DNA of 64,000 nt from Pseudomonadota bacterium. GTDB taxonomy: Bacteria; Pseudomonadota; Gammaproteobacteria; JAKAQQ01. The stretch lies in NCBI GenBank assembly GCA_021785265.1, contig JAJYFY010000002.1, positions 1-64,000 on the forward strand. The letters are read 5' to 3'. Every line of letters starts with the position of its first letter. The stretch's first letter is position 1. A program made the position numbers and the translations under genes. The notes under the pieces were generated by a model. The model was not told the origin of the DNA, did no database searches, and saw only the letters and a program-made list of their open reading frames with translations. This document shows, one piece after another, positions 1 to 42,229 of the stretch.

Positions 1-1889
1 CGGCGGGTGCGCACCCCCAGCGCTTGCTCTGGGCTTCCACGGGGGCCAAGGATCCGTCCCTGTCTGCAACCTACTATGTGGATCGACTGCTGGCACCCCA
101 CTCGATCAACACGGTCCCCGAAGCAACCCTTTTGGCTTTTGCGGCCGCAGGTCAGCCTCAAGACTTCCTATCCATGGGGTCAGCGGAAAAAACACTGGCC
201 CAAGCCCGCGACCTTGGTATTGACCTCGAGCAATGGGCGAGAACCCTGCAACTGGAGGGTCAACAGGCATTTGTTCAGTCTTTCGATAACCTGACTGAAC
301 GGCTGCGTCAGAAAACGAAGGCCCTGGGCCAGGCGCGTACAACTTCCTCACTTCCCCATTACGAAGGCCCCCTTGGAAAAACCCTGTCCGAGAAGCTCAC
401 ATCTTTGCAAAACGAAAAACTTGTGGAACGGTTCTGGAAACGTGATTACCGGATCTGGCAACCCCAGCCGGACGAAATCACCAACCGGATGGGATGGCTG
501 GATACCCCTCGTTACATGCAGGATCACGCCACCCGCCTGGAACATTTTGCCGCCGAACTCGTCCGCTCCGGCATCCGGGAAATTCTATGGTGCGGTATGG
601 GGGGTTCCAGCCTCTTCGCCCGGGTCGTCGAACAGGCTTGGCCGACTGCAAAGGGGGTCCGCATCGAAGTGCTGGACACAAGTCACCCCGTTACCCTGAA
701 GAGGGTCCTGGATCGCTATCAACCCGGCAAAAGCCTAGTGGTCATCGCATCCAAATCCGGCAAGACCCTGGAGACGCGTTCCCAACTGGAGCTGTTCTGG
801 GCGCGGGACCCGGACGGCTCCCACTACCTGGCCATCACGGACCCGGGTACCGAACTTGAAAAACTGGCATTGAGTCGGGGATTTCGTGCGTTGTTTAGAA
901 ACGATCCAACCATCGGGGGTCGCTACTCGGCACTTTCCTATTTCGGATTGGTTGCCCTGGCGTTCAAGGGAGTTTCTCTACAGGCATGGCTTCATAGTGC
1001 CGAGGCCATGGCCACCGCCTGTGCACCCTGTGTCCCGGCGCATGAAAACCCGGGCCTCGTTCTCGGAACCATGCTGGGCCTAGAAGCCCAAGCCGGACGT
1101 GATAAGTGCACCCTCATCCTACCACCGACGGTCTCTCGGTTCGGGGGCTGGCTGGAGCAACTCCTGGCAGAGTCCACCGGGAAGCACAATCACGGGATCA
1201 TTCCTATTCAAGGTGAACCCCTGACCCAGGCCCGAAATTACGGATCCGATCGTCTGTTCGTGACTTTGGATACCCTGTCCGAGGGATGGAAAGCCCTAGA
1301 CCAAGCCGATCAAGCACAAGTCGTCCTGCCTGAGCTGAAACCCGAGCGCCTGGGTGCTGAAGTTTTCCGGTGGGAGTTTGCAACGGCTGTTGCCGGGCAT
1401 CTGCTGGGGCTTAATCCGTTTGATCAGCCGGATGTCGAAAGCGCGAAACAGGCCGCTGGACTGCGTCTTTGCGGAAAAAGCCCAACCGCAGCCCCTCCCC
1501 TGGATTCACCTGCAAAGGCCTTTGGAAGCATTCGGCCGGGCGACTACCTCGCTTTTCAGGCTTACATCGACCTGGACTCCCCCTACCGCTCGCAATTGGA
1601 AGACCTTCGCCTGCGGCTCAGGGACCGTTACCAAGTTGCCACTCAGTTGGAGTTTGGTCCCCGCTACCTTCACTCAACCGGTCAGCTTCACAAAGGAGGG
1701 CCTCAAAGTGGGGTTTTCATCCAATTTCTGGATGACTTCAAGGAAACCCTGCCCATTCCTGGACAGGCTTATGGTTTTGGTGAACTGATCAGAGCACAGG
1801 CGGATGGCGACTATGAAGCCCTCAAAACCAGGAACCGGCGGGTTTTCCGGGTCCGGCTGCTTGACCTTCTCAACTATGAGGGATCCTGA
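1..1889 (+). CDS. tal-pgi: Bifunctional transaldolase / glucose-6-phosphate isomerase, 5' partial
   Basis: The reading frame is open from the first bases, so the start lies upstream of the window. The first ~110 visible residues match the C-terminal end of transaldolase (LLWASTGAKDP, then a segment like NTVPEATLLAF). The remaining ~500 residues are a phosphoglucose isomerase domain with the sugar-phosphate binding segments CGMGGSSL, VIASKSGKTLET and GGRYSALS, and KHNHGIIP further on. Such fusions join the non-oxidative pentose phosphate pathway to fructose-6-phosphate/glucose-6-phosphate exchange in the cytosol. It is the first visible gene of a sugar-phosphate operon and lies 33 bp before gnd. 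The TTG at 24 is internal, because transaldolase sequence continues upstream of it. Confidence 0.93.
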   Translation, partial: AGAHPQRLLWASTGAKDPSLSATYYVDRLLAPHSINTVPEATLLAFAAAGQPQDFLSMGSAEKTLAQARDLGIDLEQWARTLQLEGQQAFVQSFDNLTERLRQKTKALGQARTTSSLPHYEGPLGKTLSEKLTSLQNEKLVERFWKRDYRIWQPQPDEITNRMGWLDTPRYMQDHATRLEHFAAELVRSGIREILWCGMGGSSLFARVVEQAWPTAKGVRIEVLDTSHPVTLKRVLDRYQPGKSLVVIASKSGKTLETRSQLELFWARDPDGSHYLAITDPGTELEKLALSRGFRALFRNDPTIGGRYSALSYFGLVALAFKGVSLQAWLHSAEAMATACAPCVPAHENPGLVLGTMLGLEAQAGRDKCTLILPPTVSRFGGWLEQLLAESTGKHNHGIIPIQGEPLTQARNYGSDRLFVTLDTLSEGWKALDQADQAQVVLPELKPERLGAEVFRWEFATAVAGHLLGLNPFDQPDVESAKQAAGLRLCGKSPTAAPPLDSPAKAFGSIRPGDYLAFQAYIDLDSPYRSQLEDLRLRLRDRYQVATQLEFGPRYLHSTGQLHKGGPQSGVFIQFLDDFKETLPIPGQAYGFGELIRAQADGDYEALKTRNRRVFRVRLLDLLNYEGS

Positions 1890-1922
1890 GCTGGGATCCT
1901 CCCTCTCACCGGAGACGAGAAC

Positions 1923-2948
1923 GTGAAACTGGGTTTGATTGGTTTGGGCCGGATGGGCATTAACATGGCCCGCCGACTCCTTGGCGCGAAGCACGAAGTG
2001 GTCGGATTTGACATGGATGCCGAGGCACTCCAGACACTGGACAAATACGGGGGCCGGGGCGTTAACAGTCTCACTGAGTTGATTCGACAACTCACCCCAC
2101 CCAGAGCGGTCTGGCTGATGGTTCCGGCCGGGAGGGTTGATGCCTTGCTCCACGAGCTGGTTCCACTCCTCGAGGCGGGGGATACGGTCATCGATGGGGG
2201 GAACTCGTTTTACCGTGATGACCAGCGTCGTTCCAAGGAACTCTCTCAAAAGCAGATTGAGTATTTGGACGTAGGAACCAGCGGTGGCGTTTTCGGACTG
2301 GAACGCGGATACTGCCTCATGATCGGTGGGACACAGCAGGCCTATGCACGTCTGGAGCCTGTTTTTAGCGCCCTGGCACCCGGCATGGCAGCTGCCGGCC
2401 GGACTCCTGCACGCAGCAGACAAGAGCCCACCAGCGCTGAAAAAGGCTATCTCCTTTGTGGTTCCAGTGGCGCCGGCCACTTCGTCAAGATGGTCCACAA
2501 CGGGATTGAATATGGCCTGATGGCAGCCTATGCCGAAGGAATCAATATCCTGCGCCATGCCAATGTCGGGACCCAACCGGTTGCGATGGATGCCGAAACC
2601 ACCCCTCTTCGGAATCCCGAAGCATACCGTTACTCTCTTCCCCTCTCCGAGATTGCCGAGCTCTGGCGCCGAGGGAGTGTGATCTCCTCTTGGTTACTTG
2701 ACCTCCTCGCAGATGCACTCAGCCAGGATGCAGAACTCAAATCATTTCATGGTCGCGTTTCCGATTCAGGAGAGGGCCGCTGGACCGTTCAGGCCGCGAT
2801 TGAATCGGGAACACCGGCCCCGACACTGGCCACTGCCCTTTTCGCACGGTTTGATTCACGTGGGGAAAGCGATTTTGCCCGGCGCCTGCTTTCCGCTTTG
2901 CGCAGTGAGTTTGGGGGACATCTCGAAAAAACGGGGAACCTTCCATGA
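1923..2948 (+). CDS. gnd: 6-phosphogluconate dehydrogenase (decarboxylating), short GntZ/YqeC type
   Basis: 341 residues, the short form of the family. It oxidatively decarboxylates 6-phosphogluconate to ribulose-5-phosphate. The N-terminal Rossmann motif is GLIGLGRMG (residues 4-12). Substrate signatures follow: [20 protein letters not shown] and the catalytic K189/N193 in [10 protein letters not shown]. An aspartate (D30) ends strand beta-2 in VVGFDMD; in this family that favours NAD over NADP, so an NAD-linked enzyme is inferred. The start is GTG, 33 bp after tal-pgi and preceded by a GGAGACGAGA stretch. The stop overlaps the zwf start in an ATGA. Confidence 0.95.
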
Positions 2949-35959: not shown

Positions 35960-36298
35960 ATGCGTAGTACCCTGCGAATCTTGGGAAGAATTTTATTGGC
36001 CCAGATCTTCATCATTTCTTCGATTCAGAAGATCTTCGACTTCGGCGGGACGGAAGCCTACATGGCGGCCTCCGGTCTGACCCCTACGCTTCTACCGTTC
36101 GTCATCGCAATAGAGATGGGCGGCGGTCTCATGATCCTGACCGGCTGGGGCATGCGCATCGCGGCTTTTGTACTCGCCTTGTTTAGCATTGCCGCAGCCG
36201 TGATCTTCCACCTGGATTTCACCAATCCCACTCAAGTCATCCTGCTCATGAGTGACCTGGCATTCGCCGGAGGCCTGCTGGTCCTCGCCAGTAGCTAG
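35960..36298 (+). CDS. DoxX-family membrane protein
   Basis: 112 residues with four hydrophobic helices. The DoxX signature is visible in LGRILLAQIFIISSIQKIFDF near the N-terminus and in the later helix FVIAIEMGGGLMILTGWGMR. DoxX-type proteins are small inner-membrane proteins, variously linked to quinone-coupled thiosulfate oxidation and to redox stress. The specific role here is unknown. The ATG is preceded by GGATGGG and by its own promoter-like sequence, so it is probably a single-gene transcript. Confidence 0.8.
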   Translation: MRSTLRILGRILLAQIFIISSIQKIFDFGGTEAYMAASGLTPTLLPFVIAIEMGGGLMILTGWGMRIAAFVLALFSIAAAVIFHLDFTNPTQVILLMSDLAFAGGLLVLASS

Positions 36299-36351
36299 GT
36301 CCCGCCGAGAGAAGACGAACTAGATTCTGCGTGAAAACTCGGAGCCGCAGG

Positions 36352-37104
36352 TTATTCCAGATCCGAATCATTCGCGATCCTCTGGAGTGCCGGCCGGTCG
36401 GTCAGGATCAGGTGACGACGCTCCACTTCGATCAATCCCCGCTTCCTGAAGTTCGAGAATAACCGGCTCACCGTTTCGAGCTGGAGCCCCAGATAACTTC
36501 CGATTTCCTCTCGCGACATGCGCAGGTGAAACGAAGCGGGGGAATATCCTCGACTCTCGTACCTTTCCGAGAGATCCAACAGAAACACGGCCAGTCGTTG
36601 TTCCGCAGTTTTGCAGCCCAAAACCCGCATGATTTGATGATCCCGCTGAATCTCCCGACTCAGGATCTGATGAAAACGTTTCTGGAGAGCAGGCAGCTCC
36701 CGGCCCAAAACTTCAAGGTCTTCAAAGGTCACTTCACAGACCTCGCTATCTTCAAGTGCGATAGCCTCGCAGGTATGCACCCCGCCTGCAATTCCATCCA
36801 AACCGAGGAGTTCTCCTGCCATGTGAAAGCCAAAAATCCGACATGAACCGGAACTTTCCGGGTCACGGGTCTTGAGAAAACCCACCCGCACGGCATAGAG
36901 CGAGCGGCAAGTCATGCCAGCATGATAGAGCGTCTCGGTTTTCCGGACCTTACGCCGGCGCCGAACGATCGCATCGACCCGTTTGATCTCCGCTGCCGAC
37001 AAGCCCAAGGGTAAGCACAGTTCTCTCAATCCGCAGGTCGAACAGGCCACTTTGAGGGTCTCCAAGCTGAAGACCGGATTAGCGCTGTCAATACGGGTGG
37101 CCAT
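36352..37104 (-). CDS. fnr: FNR/ANR-type oxygen-sensing transcriptional regulator
   Basis: 250 residues. Cysteines 21, 24, 30 and 123 correspond almost exactly to the four [4Fe-4S] ligands of E. coli FNR (20, 23, 29, 122), so oxygen sensing is expected. A CRP-like cyclic-nucleotide fold is followed by a helix-turn-helix, EIGSYLGLQLETVSRLFSNF. Glu210, Ser213 and Arg214 match the residues that read TTGAT. The ATG at 37104 has GGAGGGAAG upstream. It is divergent from hemN, and a perfect FNR box lies 38 bp upstream of its start. Confidence 0.93.
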   Translation of the reverse strand: MATRIDSANPVFSLETLKVACSTCGLRELCLPLGLSAAEIKRVDAIVRRRRKVRKTETLYHAGMTCRSLYAVRVGFLKTRDPESSGSCRIFGFHMAGELLGLDGIAGGVHTCEAIALEDSEVCEVTFEDLEVLGRELPALQKRFHQILSREIQRDHQIMRVLGCKTAEQRLAVFLLDLSERYESRGYSPASFHLRMSREEIGSYLGLQLETVSRLFSNFRKRGLIEVERRHLILTDRPALQRIANDSDLE

Positions 37105-37142
37105 CGAACACTTCCCTCCGGACCGGTTCGAGAAATCCAAAC

Positions 37143-37156
37143 TTGATATGGATCAA
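37143..37156. promoter_or_regulatory. Perfect FNR/ANR box
   Basis: TTGAT-ATGG-ATCAA matches the FNR/ANR consensus TTGATNNNNATCAA exactly. It lies between the divergent fnr-type and hemN genes. A -10-like TAGAAT (37189-37194) on the hemN side puts the box centre near -51, not the classic -41.5, so the exact promoter geometry is unsure. Close to fnr it could also mediate autorepression. Confidence 0.75.
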
Positions 37157-37210
37157 TATTCACTTTATCACGAAGCGGATCAACGGATTAGAATTGAACG
37201 GTTTAAGGGC

Positions 37211-38665
37211 ATGGAACCCCCCATGCAGAGTCGTCCAGATCCAACCGGTTTCCCCGTGGGACTCCCCTCGGAGGAAACGCTTCGGACAGTGGTTTTCGAC
37301 GGCGAACTCATTCGCCGACTGGACCGCCCGGGTCCGCGCTACACGTCCTACCCGACCACCAACCATTTTTCCGAGGAGTTCAACGAGCAGAGCTATCAGA
37401 ACTGTGTGGCCCAGGAGGAAGCGGCCCCGCAACCACGTGACTTGTCACTGTATTTCCATATTCCGTTCTGTAGGCACCTCTGCTTTTATTGCGCGTGCAA
37501 TAAGATCGTGACCCGTAACCGGGACAAGGCCGCGAAATACCTCGACTACCTCCTTCGGGAACTGGAACTCCGGAGCGTGGGGTTCAAGGACGGGCGACGG
37601 GTCAGTCAGCTTCATTGGGGAGGAGGAACGCCCACGTATCTCGAACCCGCACAGATGGCAAACCTCATGCAGTCCATCCGGAAGCGGTTTTTTCTGTCAG
37701 ACGATGCCCTGGGTGAATACTCAATTGAAGTGGATCCACGAACGGTGAGTCAGGAGACCGTGGGTTTTCTGCGTTCCCTGGGATTTAACCGGATCAGCAT
37801 CGGGGTCCAGGACTTTGACCCCCAAGTCCAGAAAAAAGTCCACCGGATTCAGTCTGAGGAGGAAACCCAACGGGTCGTAGAGACCGCACGCCAATCAAAG
37901 TTTCGTTCCATCAACCTGGACTTGATCTACGGGTTACCGGCGCAATCGGTCGAAAGCTTTGAACGGACCCTCGACCAGGTTCTGGCCATCTATCCCGACC
38001 GGGTCGCACTGTACAACTACGCCCATCTGCCGCATCTTTTTCGACCCCAGAAAAAGATTGATGCCCGGGATCTTCCGCCTCCCGAGGTAAAACTCGAGAT
38101 TCTGCGGTGCGCCGTGGAAAGGCTGACCCGTGCGGGTTATCACTATATCGGGATGGATCACTTTGCCAGAGCGGACGATGAGCTCGCGATTGCCCAACGG
38201 GAGCACCGTTTACAACGAAATTTCCAGGGGTATTCCACTCATCCGGAATGCCACCTCATCGGGTTTGGAATATCCGCCATCGGGATGATGGGAGCCAGCT
38301 ATAGCCAGAACTTCCGGACCCTCGACTCCTATTACCAGAGCATTGACCAAAATCGCCTGCCGATCTTCCGCGGAATTATCCTGACCCCGGATGACCGTTT
38401 GCGTCGCACCCTCATTCATTCCTTGGCCTGTCAGTTCCGGATTTCCATCCCCGCCATCGAGGAAAGCTATGGTATCCGGTTCGACGCCTACTTCCAGGAT
38501 GAACTTCGGGAGCTGGCGGAACTCGAAGCCCTCGGTCTCCTCTCAACCGGACCACAGGAAATCCGGGTGACCCTCAAGGGGCGTTTGCTGGTTCGCAATA
38601 TCTGCATGATCTTCGACCGCTACCTGCGCGCGGAACGGATGCCGCAGTATTCGCGCGTGATCTGA
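37211..38665 (+). CDS. hemN: Oxygen-independent coproporphyrinogen III oxidase (radical SAM)
   Basis: 484 residues. It decarboxylates coproporphyrinogen III without oxygen in haem synthesis. The signature GPRYTSYPT is followed by the radical SAM cluster motif C87-R-H-L-C91-F-Y-C94 within FHIPFC. GGGTPTYL, IEVDPRT and GLPAQS follow in HemN order. The start at 37211 has AAGG very close upstream; an ATG four codons later is nearly as good. The frame is open further upstream through the FNR box, which argues against longer starts. Confidence 0.95.
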   Translation: MEPPMQSRPDPTGFPVGLPSEETLRTVVFDGELIRRLDRPGPRYTSYPTTNHFSEEFNEQSYQNCVAQEEAAPQPRDLSLYFHIPFCRHLCFYCACNKIVTRNRDKAAKYLDYLLRELELRSVGFKDGRRVSQLHWGGGTPTYLEPAQMANLMQSIRKRFFLSDDALGEYSIEVDPRTVSQETVGFLRSLGFNRISIGVQDFDPQVQKKVHRIQSEEETQRVVETARQSKFRSINLDLIYGLPAQSVESFERTLDQVLAIYPDRVALYNYAHLPHLFRPQKKIDARDLPPPEVKLEILRCAVERLTRAGYHYIGMDHFARADDELAIAQREHRLQRNFQGYSTHPECHLIGFGISAIGMMGASYSQNFRTLDSYYQSIDQNRLPIFRGIILTPDDRLRRTLIHSLACQFRISIPAIEESYGIRFDAYFQDELRELAELEALGLLSTGPQEIRVTLKGRLLVRNICMIFDRYLRAERMPQYSRVI

Positions 38666-38683
38666 ATCGAATACGGACTGTTT

Positions 38684-38716
38684 GACTCCGGGATTCCAAG
38701 CGGAGGGTCTTTTACT
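38684..38716 (+). terminator. Weak hairpin with T-rich tail after hemN
   Basis: CTCCG (38686-38690) pairs with CGGAG (38701-38705) across a 10-base loop, followed by GGTCTTTTACTTTTTTC. The stem is short and the loop long, so termination efficiency is doubtful. Confidence 0.35.
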
Positions 38717-38722
38717 TTTTTC

Positions 38723-38751
38723 TTGTAAAACAAAATGACTTCCCCTATGAT
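38723..38751 (+). promoter_or_regulatory. Sigma-70 promoter of the diiron protein gene
   Basis: TTGTAA (38723-38728) and TATGAT (38746-38751) are separated by exactly 17 bp. The predicted start near 38758 leaves a short leader with AGGGAGA before the ATG at 38780. This is one of the best promoter matches in the window and shows the gene can be expressed independently of hemN. Confidence 0.65.
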
Positions 38752-38779
38752 TTAAGATCACCTCCGCAGGGAGACCCAG

Positions 38780-39634
38780 ATGCCGGGTGAGGTCAGCCAT
38801 AAAGAAGCCGGGAGGGTCGCCCGAGCCCACCGACCGGACCACTGGAATGTCGATGCGCTTCCCTGGGATTCACTTGAGCTTGAGCGCATTGCAGACAACG
38901 AAGTCTTTTTTTTTCTGATTTCTACAGCATCCTTTGTCGAGATTACGACTGATCTTTACACCTCGAACCTGACTGCGCATTATGCCGGTGACGATGAGGT
39001 CACGGTCTGGCTCCATGAGCATTGGCAACCGGAAGAGCTCCAGCACGGTGCCGCCCTCAAACGCTATGTGAAAACCGTCTGGCCCAGCTTTGACTGGGAT
39101 CTGGCCTACCAGAACTTTTACCAGGAATACGGTCGGCTTTGTAATGCAGCCCAGCTCGAAGCGACCCGGTCACAGGAAATGGTTGCCCGCTGTATTGTCG
39201 AGACAGGCACGGCGTCCTATTACACGATGGTTCGGGATGCCTCCCCGGAGCCGCTCCTCCAAAAGATCGCCCACCATATCCGGACTGACGAGGTCGGCCA
39301 TTACAAGTATTTTTTCCGCTACTTCCGGAAATATGCCCGACAGGAATCCGTTTCCCGCCGGGCCATCTTCAAAGCGCTCTGGACCCGCATCCGGGAGATC
39401 GACAACGAGGATGGACTGATTGCCTACAAACACGCCTTCCAGGTCCGCCATCCGGACCAGGCCTTCGACCCGCAACGTTACGAGCAATTCCGCTTGAACC
39501 TGAACCGGATGACCCGTGACCACTTTCCATTCGAGATGGCCGTTCGGATGTGCCTCCGACCCATGGATCTGCCTCACCCGGTTGAACGTCTCTCCATTCC
39601 CATTCTGGTTGCCGGAGCCCGGCGATTTCTCTAG
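38780..39634 (+). CDS. Ferritin-like diiron protein of unknown function
   Basis: 284 residues with no signal peptide. It carries a complete carboxylate-bridged diiron set: Glu54, E86-x-x-H89, Glu141 and E171-x-x-H174 on predicted long helices. This is the pattern of ferritin-like oxidases, oxygenases and desaturases. I do not recognise a named enzyme. Candidates are a desaturase- or N-oxygenase-like enzyme, or an oxygen or peroxide reductase. It has its own promoter, lies after the oxygen-controlled hemN and is followed 62 bp later by a photolyase. The substrate is unknown. Confidence 0.8.
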   Translation: MPGEVSHKEAGRVARAHRPDHWNVDALPWDSLELERIADNEVFFFLISTASFVEITTDLYTSNLTAHYAGDDEVTVWLHEHWQPEELQHGAALKRYVKTVWPSFDWDLAYQNFYQEYGRLCNAAQLEATRSQEMVARCIVETGTASYYTMVRDASPEPLLQKIAHHIRTDEVGHYKYFFRYFRKYARQESVSRRAIFKALWTRIREIDNEDGLIAYKHAFQVRHPDQAFDPQRYEQFRLNLNRMTRDHFPFEMAVRMCLRPMDLPHPVERLSIPILVAGARRFL

Positions 39635-39696
39635 CCCGCCCGGTGCGCACATCCGAGTTCCCCTCTGGTCCTGTATCCGGACCGGATTTCTGAACC

Positions 39697-41118
39697 ATGA
39701 TTCTGCACTGGTTTAGAAGGGACTTACGGGTAGACGATAATGTGGCGTTGGCTGCCGCCTGTCGGAATGACACCCCGGTCGTCGGGGTGTTTTGTTGCGA
39801 TCGCCGTTGGTTCCCCGCGCAAACCGGCCAAACCGGAGTTCATCAAGCGACTTTTTTACTGGCTGCCCTTTCAGAGCTTGCCACGAATCTGGCCCGCCTC
39901 AACATTCCACTCAAGTTCAGGGTTACAGACGATCCGGTACAGACCCTACTGGCACTCGCGGCTGAGCTCAGGGCGACATCCATCGTTTTCAACAAGGAAT
40001 ACGAGCCGGCACAACTCAAGCAGGACTCTCGGCTGATGAGAGAGGCAGCCCGGATCGGCCTTCCGGTCAACGGGTTCAAAGATGGGGCGATCTTTGAGGA
40101 AAACGAGATTCTCTCCTCCAGTGGCAAACCCTACACCGTGTTTTCGCCCTACCGGCGGAGTTGGCTCACCCGCTTAGGCATGAATCCATTGAACATGGCC
40201 AGACCGCCCCGGGCCCGATCGGTTATCCCGACGCAGCCTGACCCTATCCCGGAACCAACGGTTTTCGGATTTTCCGCGGTGAACCTGGTCCAGGCACCCG
40301 GCGAACGGGCCGCGATCCAAAGACTGAATACATTTGCCCGCCAGTCGATTATTGAATACGAATCCCAACGGAATTTCCCTGCAGTGGAAGGAACCTCACG
40401 GCTTTCGCCCCACCTGTCGGCGGGGACCGTCTCCATTCGCCGATGCGTGAATGCCGCACTGGATCAGGGAGCCGGTCAAGGCGTGCATGGCGCGGGGGTG
40501 TGGCTGACAGAGCTGATCTGGCGTGATTTTTACCGGATGATCCTGTTCCATTTCCCCCATACCGAAAACCAGGCCTTTGATCAGAAGTATGCCACCCTGG
40601 AATGGAGCAGTGATCCGGAGCTTCGGGATACTTGGATCCACGGCCGAACGGGGTACCCCATCGTCGACGCGGCCATCCTTCAGGTACGGGAAACGGGCTG
40701 GATGCACAACCGTCTCCGCATGATCGTGGCCATGTTTCTCACCAAGGATCTCGACGTCCACTGGCGCTTCGGTGAGCGGCAGTTCCGCTTCTGGCTCATG
40801 GACTATGATCAGGCCAGCAATGTCGGCGGCTGGCAATGGAGTGCTGGAACTGGCACGGATGCAGCTCCCTATTTCCGCGTGTTGAATCCTATTCTTCAGG
40901 GACAGCGATACGATCCGAATGGCCGTTTCGTCCGGCTATACCTGCCAGCCCTGCGCCGGGTTCCGGATCGGTTTGTCCATGCTCCCTGGCTCATGCCATC
41001 GGCACTTCAATCAACCACAGGATGCCTCATCGGTCGCGATTACCCCGCACCCGTCGTGGACCACGCGACGGCGCGCCGGCAGGCGATCGAGAAGTTTCGC
41101 CGCAGGAGTTCACGTTGA
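39697..41118 (+). CDS. phrB: Deoxyribodipyrimidine photolyase (CPD class I)
   Basis: 473 residues. It repairs cyclobutane pyrimidine dimers with blue light. The N-terminal antenna-binding Rossmann domain starts LHWFRRDLRVDDN. The FAD domain includes SRLSPHLSAGTVS, WRDFYRMILFHFP, and the C-terminal signature GWMHNRLRMIVAMFLTKDL followed by GGWQWSAGTGTDAAPYFR. The tryptophans expected for electron transfer are present in this region. Length and motifs match CPD photolyase rather than cryptochrome-only proteins. It is convergent with dnaJ. Confidence 0.94.
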   Translation: MILHWFRRDLRVDDNVALAAACRNDTPVVGVFCCDRRWFPAQTGQTGVHQATFLLAALSELATNLARLNIPLKFRVTDDPVQTLLALAAELRATSIVFNKEYEPAQLKQDSRLMREAARIGLPVNGFKDGAIFEENEILSSSGKPYTVFSPYRRSWLTRLGMNPLNMARPPRARSVIPTQPDPIPEPTVFGFSAVNLVQAPGERAAIQRLNTFARQSIIEYESQRNFPAVEGTSRLSPHLSAGTVSIRRCVNAALDQGAGQGVHGAGVWLTELIWRDFYRMILFHFPHTENQAFDQKYATLEWSSDPELRDTWIHGRTGYPIVDAAILQVRETGWMHNRLRMIVAMFLTKDLDVHWRFGERQFRFWLMDYDQASNVGGWQWSAGTGTDAAPYFRVLNPILQGQRYDPNGRFVRLYLPALRRVPDRFVHAPWLMPSALQSTTGCLIGRDYPAPVVDHATARRQAIEKFRRRSSR

Positions 41119-41170
41119 GGCTCTGAACAAGGAATGGGGAAATCATCCCCCCCTGTGACAAAAAATCCGG

Positions 41171-42229
41171 CTACACCGTACGGGCAGCCGCGAAGCTCGA
41201 CTCCAGCTCTTTGAGCAGGCGCTTTTGGTCCTCGGTCAGGCGCTTGGGCACCTCAACCGTGACCCGGCAGATGAGATCCCCCCGTTTCTTGTTTTTGAGG
41301 GTCGGCACACCTTGGCCGTGGAGACGCAGCAGGGCACCATCCGGAGTCGCGGGTCCGACTTTGAGCGAATCCTTCCCCTGCAAGGTCTCGACCTCCATCA
41401 CCCCACCCAGCGCGAGCAGCGTGTAGCGGACGGGAATTTCGCAGTACAGATCCCCACCTTCACGTCGGAACCTCGGGTGGGCCCGGATATGAATCTCCAC
41501 ATAGAGATCCCCCCCCGGTTGCCCCACCTCACCTGCCTCTCCCATCCCTGCAAGCCGAATCCGATCGCCTTCATCCACCCCGGGAGGAATCCGGACTTCA
41601 ATCCGGCGGCGGGAACGAATCCGACCTGAACCGTGGCAACCCCGACAGTCCCCCTTCCGGGTTTGCCCCCGCCCTTCGCATCTCGGACAGCTTTGCCGGA
41701 GGGTAAAAAAACCCTGCTGGACCCGGATTTCACCCGTTCCCCGACAATCCATGCACGGTTCCGGACGGGAACCCGGTTTCGAACCGCTGCCCTTGCAATC
41801 TTGGCAGATCACCATCGTCTCGTATTCAAGTGGAGTGGACTCGCCTTGAGCGACCTGTTCCAGGTCGAGTTCCAGGGCATAGACCAGGTCCCGTCCTCGG
41901 CCATTGCGTGTCTGACCAAATGCAGAACCGAAGATGCTGCCAAACAGGTCTCCGAAGATCTCGTTGGGATCAAAACCCGGTGAGGCTCCGGGCTGTCCCG
42001 CAAGGCCGGCATGGCCAAACCGGTCATAGAGAGCGCGACGTTCAGGGTCATAGAGCACATCGAAGGCTTCCTTCACCGTCTTGAACTGCTCTTCCGCCTC
42101 CCTCGATCCTGGATTGCGATCAGGGTGCAGCTTCATCGCCAGACGCCGGAACGCCTTCTTGATTTCCTCTGGACTTGCGTCACGGGAAACCGAGAGAGTC
42201 TCGTAATAGTCGAGCTTTGAAGGCGCCAT
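41171..42229 (-). CDS. dnaJ: Chaperone DnaJ (Hsp40, type I)
   Basis: 352 residues. The J domain (DYYETLSVSRDAS) carries the HPD motif in KLHPDRNPG. A Gly/Phe-rich linker (FGDLFGSIFGSAFGQ) is followed by four zinc motifs CxxCxGxG (CQDCKGSG, CMDCRGTG, CPRCEGRG, CRGCHGSG) and the substrate-binding domain. It delivers clients to DnaK and stimulates its ATPase. It is the last gene of the hrcA-grpE-dnaK-dnaJ block, 50 bp after dnaK, and slightly short for the family. Confidence 0.97.
   Translation of the reverse strand: MAPSKLDYYETLSVSRDASPEEIKKAFRRLAMKLHPDRNPGSREAEEQFKTVKEAFDVLYDPERRALYDRFGHAGLAGQPGASPGFDPNEIFGDLFGSIFGSAFGQTRNGRGRDLVYALELDLEQVAQGESTPLEYETMVICQDCKGSGSKPGSRPEPCMDCRGTGEIRVQQGFFTLRQSCPRCEGRGQTRKGDCRGCHGSGRIRSRRRIEVRIPPGVDEGDRIRLAGMGEAGEVGQPGGDLYVEIHIRAHPRFRREGGDLYCEIPVRYTLLALGGVMEVETLQGKDSLKVGPATPDGALLRLHGQGVPTLKNKKRGDLICRVTVEVPKRLTEDQKRLLKELESSFAAARTV

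Follow-up and report, generated by a model that had tools for sequence, protein, structure and literature searches.

A deep, unnamed branch of bacterial diiron proteins near the soluble acyl-ACP desaturases

The window, by which we mean the whole 64,000-nucleotide stretch of gammaproteobacterial DNA that was analysed, contains a gene for a protein of 284 residues that has all the ligands of a diiron site and is very probably of the same kind as the soluble acyl-ACP desaturases, enzymes known chiefly from plant plastids. The window protein and its relatives (loci and genomes are cited here by our L and G numbers) constitute a deep, unnamed branch near these enzymes. We file the protein as desaturase-like and not as a member of the group, because the family forms a clade of its own, genome scans with PF03405 at E <= 0.001 reported other genes and not the window gene, and the window protein itself misses this Pfam model. 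Judged from its sequence and predicted structure, the balance of probability leans slightly towards an oxygen-dependent enzyme that acts on a carrier-bound acyl chain.

The gene and its family

The gene is real, an intact open reading frame with an ATG start and a GGAG in front of it (Table 1). The earlier note had ascribed to it a strong separate promoter, and a consensus scan did locate a candidate promoter that matches 9 of 12 consensus positions, in a region (36200-41300) that holds 5 promoter-like sites where 2.0 are expected. Among the upstream regions of five relatives that were aligned, the two hexamers and the spacer are identical in the close relative G002 and no such promoter was seen in the other four; the candidate promoter recurs in one relative, while its strength is an inference only.

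Table 1. Positions of the window gene, its start signals and active-site codons, and of two arrangements found around distant relatives
Feature	Location	Strand	Basis
Gene for soluble diiron protein, acyl-ACP-desaturase-like	38780..39634	+	ORF, ligand conservation, predicted structure, profile, alignment
Putative own sigma-70-type promoter, TTGTAA-17-TATGAT	38723..38751	+	consensus match
GGAG, likely ribosome-binding site, 6 nt before ATG	38770..38773	+	read directly
W22 codon, aligned with castor W62	38843..38845	+	W in 45/45 members
Ligand E54 codon (castor E105)	38939..38941	+	conservation and castor alignment
First E-x-x-H motif, E86 and H89 (castor E143, H146)	39035..39046	+	conservation and castor alignment
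E141 and T144 (castor ligand E196, active-site T199)	39200..39211	+	E in 45/45, T in 44/45
D170, E171 and H174 (castor D228, E229, H232)	39287..39301	+	45/45 each
Run with fab genes (distant relatives)	L121 3074-10559; L122 6729-14881; L126	one strand	
Gene directly after the atpG-atpD(-atpC) end of the ATP-synthase operon (distant relatives)	L116, L117, L119, L120, L123, L124		

The protein had been described as an orphan, a description that no longer holds. Family members are present in 16 of the 369 genomes sampled from the class (E <= 1e-20) and in 24 of the 398 sampled from the phylum (E <= 1e-10), the window genome being counted in both, and Burkholderia and Cupriavidus are among the named carriers. 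One genome of the phylum, G496, has four copies (L078, L090, L091, L092); in terms of the tree below, three belong to the core branch and one to the distant branch. We searched a plasmid collection by tblastn and obtained no match, and we found no paper on the family in a literature search that left most subscription journals outside its coverage; this bacterial family is apparently unstudied.

The ligands of the window protein are E54, E86-x-x-H89, E141 and E171-x-x-H174, exactly as numbered in the earlier note. All six are kept in 12 relatives that are 38-86% identical to the window protein, and in an alignment of the 45 distinct family members, window protein included, none has lost any of them. 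This count takes a gene that was reached twice only once (L070 is L007, and L025 is L016) and leaves out the repeats L008-L010, L012, L017, L020-L024 and L036. To judge from such conservation in sequence, the diiron set of the window gene is under selection.

Database models place the window protein poorly. No Pfam family matched it at E <= 0.1, PF03405 did not match it even at E <= 1 (its gathering score of 22.7 bits was not reached), no rubrerythrin or ferritin match at the Pfam cut-offs was obtained, and NCBIfam returned only models far below their cut-offs, the best being an encapsulated-ferritin model at 16.6 bits against a cut-off of 125. Its relatives come closer: 7 of 13 members touch PF03405 at E <= 0.1, and 4 of the 11 scanned singly exceed the cut-off (L005 with 25.5, L071 with 24.5, L079 with 24.4 and L092 with 26.4 bits). 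The earlier statement that the protein has no named family therefore stands for the window protein in Pfam but not for those of its relatives that pass PF03405, and the solved relatives of the family's own profile are acyl-ACP desaturases.

The encapsulated-ferritin match would also suit a diiron oxidase that merely scavenges oxygen or peroxide or guards iron, in the manner of a rubrerythrin or ferritin, as would the rubrerythrin matches seen at E <= 0.1 in 2 of 13 members; L080 reaches 35.5 bits for rubrerythrin (cut-off 22.8) and just passes COQ7 as well (23.9 against 23.5). The predicted chain, however, is a 284-residue bundle of the desaturase/R2 type, and its conserved Trp-Asp-His set and active-site threonine would in our judgement better fit directed oxygen activation than storage. 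We regard a scavenging or storage role as improbable.

Relation to the acyl-ACP desaturases

Searched directly against PDB sequences, the window protein matched nothing, even at E 10. A profile built from 30 of the 45 members matched ten PDB sequences at E <= 0.1, nine of which are acyl-ACP desaturases: DesA2 of M. tuberculosis (1za0) is the best (E 1.2e-9), eight plant sequences match weakly (E 0.0023-0.024), and the tenth match is a designed helix bundle. In profile comparisons the family matches two bacterial desaturases with 94.6% probability (E 6.9e-8) and a second desaturase-like protein of the same genome, L019, with 97.0% probability (E 9.1e-11). DesA2, although it heads the solved structures that the family profile finds, is matched far more strongly by a profile made from two bacterial PF03405 proteins (2.1e-29).

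The fold search that the earlier note had proposed points in the same direction. The AlphaFold2 model of the window protein has a mean pLDDT of 88.6 and a pTM of 0.86, with residues 1-17 uncertain. When the best 1000 chains found by Foldseek were structurally re-aligned to this predicted model, ranks 1-9 were all acyl-ACP desaturases (Z 16.6-18.1 over 236-257 residues, rmsd 4.1-4.3 A), followed by R2-like oxidases (R2lox, Z 15.7), the azoxy synthase VlmB (15.6), an aldehyde-deformylating oxidase of Kitasatospora (6d9f, 15.3) and R2 proteins (about 15); DesA2 gave Z 14.8 over 207 residues. Foldseek alone gave weaker matches (best E 1.7e-3) with R2-like oxidases in its first four rows, an order that was lost on structural re-alignment. 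Among viral structure models none was similar at E <= 0.001. The earlier reading of the protein as ferritin-like and diiron is upheld, and desaturase is the best supported of the several functions guessed at with it.

Since the same fold also carries VlmB and 6d9f, the protein could instead be a diiron oxygenase that acts on a small molecule in place of an acyl chain, by hydroxylation, N-oxygenation or cleavage, and 1 of 13 members does show a weak match to AurF (E 0.033). Against this, desaturases rank higher by Z, and inspection by eye of the loci that we read revealed no biosynthetic cluster, most of their neighbours lying outside the family-library scans. AurF also has a histidine as seventh ligand, presumably four residues before the last glutamate ligand, where the family has residue 167, an isoleucine in 44 and a leucine in 1 of the 45 members. 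A small-molecule substrate seems to us rather unlikely, if a serious alternative.

The acyl-ACP-desaturase reading is borne out by individual residues. Nine positions of the castor stearoyl-ACP desaturase (1afr) are identical in the window protein in our alignment; in castor-to-window order they are W62-W22, E105-E54, E143-E86, H146-H89, E196-E141, T199-T144, D228-D170, E229-E171 and H232-H174. Castor W62 we take to be the point of electron entry, and the Trp-Asp-His series the path of the electrons. Trp22 and Asp170 are as invariant in the family as the ligands, and Thr144 is nearly so (Table 1). The same six ligands and equivalents of W62, T199 and D228 thus unite the window protein with the soluble desaturases (PF03405, FA_desaturase_2; castor 1afr and ivy 2uw1), with which it shares a fold at Z up to 18.1; the window protein nevertheless is only 14-15% identical to them, is shorter, misses PF03405 and falls in a separate clade. 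Numbering of the castor chain required an offset of 18, set by hand, which reproduces the published ligand numbers. These six numbers agree with those in a review (PMC9825965), where an active-site threonine is described as essential.

Residues likewise bear on whether the protein could be a radical-generating R2 subunit of ribonucleotide reductase or an R2-like ligand-binding oxidase, which have the diiron bundle in common with it, follow next after the desaturases by Z and, as R2lox, come first in Foldseek; the Trp and Asp also align in two R2 proteins. The radical tyrosine of R2 presumably lies four residues after the first histidine ligand, and the cross-link tyrosine of R2lox five residues before the third glutamate ligand. 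The window family, however, lacks a tyrosine at either of these positions, residue 93 being leucine in 45 of 45 members and residue 136 alanine in 44 and serine in 1 of 45, and neither R2 nor R2lox is among the ten PDB matches of the profile. We consider either identity very improbable.

In a tree rooted on an R2 outgroup (PF00268; R2 was found in 2 of 8 genomes), the 45 family members form their own clade with support of 0.995, while the castor enzyme and two bacterial desaturases (L060 and L061) group apart with support of 0.997, and a grouping of the family with known desaturases was not obtained. Branches in this tree are long and only three true desaturases are included, which leaves the order among groups weak. 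Within the family, a core branch of 31 members separates from a distant branch of 14, most of which belong to classes of the phylum other than that of the window. From the PF03405-like comparison loci that were fetched, a subset was aligned, six resembling L019 and two resembling L064. The Trp of L060 aligned as W when the full protein was used.

L019 itself lies on contig 34 of the window's genome (G000; 1186-2058, minus strand), with a short-chain-dehydrogenase-like ORF nearby, identified by eye. This paralogue keeps the six ligands, the Trp and the Asp, but it is only 21% identical to the window protein, has Leu at the active-site Thr position and passes PF03405 at 29 bits. L064, L067, L068 and L069 belong to another PF03405-like group, with three copies in genome G120; L064 and L067 retain the six ligands and the Thr and have Gln in place of the Asp and Leu in place of the Trp.

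Gene neighbourhoods

The genes that the earlier note had recognised on either side of the window gene are confirmed by family models as hemN upstream (TIGR00538, 614 bits) and a photolyase downstream (PF03441, PF00875). The order fnr-hemN-gene-photolyase is shared by the window and G002, a genome of the same genus; such an arrangement might tie the protein to oxygen control or light damage, as had been proposed. We compared 43 other loci, of which 42 could be used (L042 extends past the end of its contig, and in L026, L039, L041 and L043 less than 1.2 kb is available on one or both sides of the gene), and found hemN or photolyase within 6.5 kb of the gene in only one, that of G002. In five other genomes of the taxonomic family hemN sits on a separate contig or, in the case of G005, at a distance of about 91 kb, and in G001, an 86% complete assembly from the same genus, neither the family gene nor hemN was found. 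A single perfect FNR box, TTGATATGGATCAA, lies at 37143-37156 between the divergent fnr and hemN genes, fitting oxygen control of that pair as far as the motif can tell. No good FNR site precedes the window gene, the nearest (38657-38670) having two mismatches and overlapping the hemN stop codon; sites with up to two mismatches number 33 in the window against 21 expected. The linkage is therefore no clue to an oxygen or light role, which we think scarcely credible, and the window gene's own neighbours say little about what the protein does.

Other genomes of the taxonomic family retain parts of a wider queG to dnaJ region around the gene. Outside the window's own family, a comparison with few distant loci found that L049 and L007 have two genes in common and that L051 has a dnaJ-type fragment. 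When more loci were compared, there was family-level synteny in L005, L106, L107 and L108 and in L049, L105 and L109.

Three of the 14 loci of the distant branch, all from one genus (L121, L122 and L126, two of them nearly identical at 97-100%), have the gene within a same-strand run of fab genes: an enoyl-CoA hydratase-like gene precedes it, and an OpuAC-type protein, a methyltransferase, fabD, fabG, acpP and fabF follow, with spacings in L121 of no more than 35 bases down to fabG. No such run was found in the core-branch loci examined. The fab run is the only direct hint of a substrate, and the relatives that provide it share only about 25% identity with the window protein. Another six of the 14 loci, representing five taxonomic families, have the gene downstream of ATP-synthase genes and co-oriented with them, with atpD within 0.5-1.2 kb (AtpD and AtpC were confirmed by Pfam in L117); this adjacency may simply reflect an ancestral gene order. 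The wider comparison as a whole raises somewhat our confidence in the acyl-chain reading and in that of a second desaturase lineage, discussed below.

Proposed activity and fatty acid supply

Our computations cover the fold, the ligands, the identity of nine residues with the castor enzyme, and the operon-like acpP/fab run of distant relatives in one genus. In the mechanism that we propose for a desaturase-like enzyme, four glutamates and two histidines would hold two irons inside the helical bundle, and electrons, most likely from ferredoxin, would enter along a Trp22-Asp170-His89 path. O2 would then be activated at the reduced diiron site, where Thr144 is positioned like its castor counterpart, and a long chain lodged in the protein would lose hydrogen. 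As the most likely substrate we favour a carrier-bound acyl chain, with ACP as the first choice of carrier and CoA as the next, and as the most likely outcome a double bond. For the window protein, the metal content, the use of oxygen, the electron donor and both the substrate and the product are all inferred.

A replacement of FabA by the family is unsupported, as carriers are not poor in FabA: at E <= 1e-30, FabA is matched in 9 of the 16 class carriers and in 200 of the 369 class genomes overall, the seven carriers lacking a match being G000, G003, G005, G021, G214, G253 and G286. The window's genome, an 85% complete assembly with no FabA match, does encode a membrane desaturase (PF00487), whose His boxes we identified by eye. 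Two genomes of the same taxonomic family, G003 and G005 (96% and 94% complete assemblies), have neither FabA above the cut-off nor PF00487, and are the only ones to lack both among the 20 genomes tested (19 carriers and G001). Both carry a window-type protein as well as the paralogue.

The review cited above places soluble acyl-ACP desaturases exclusively in plant plastids (PMC9825965). We tentatively raise the possibility, which we hold at somewhat less than even, that bacteria have a second lineage of soluble, oxygen-dependent acyl-ACP desaturases or hydroxylases, so far unrecognised and represented by this family, which in one genus lies within a fatty-acid synthesis gene run. If this is true, the second lineage would explain the unsaturated fatty acids of G003 and G005. 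The family would also offer a shorter natural variant for enzyme studies, and in one genus the acpP-fab run allows the substrate to be tested directly. More broadly, a scattered bacterial branch whose active site is complete would give bacteria a further, oxygen-dependent way of making modified acyl chains.
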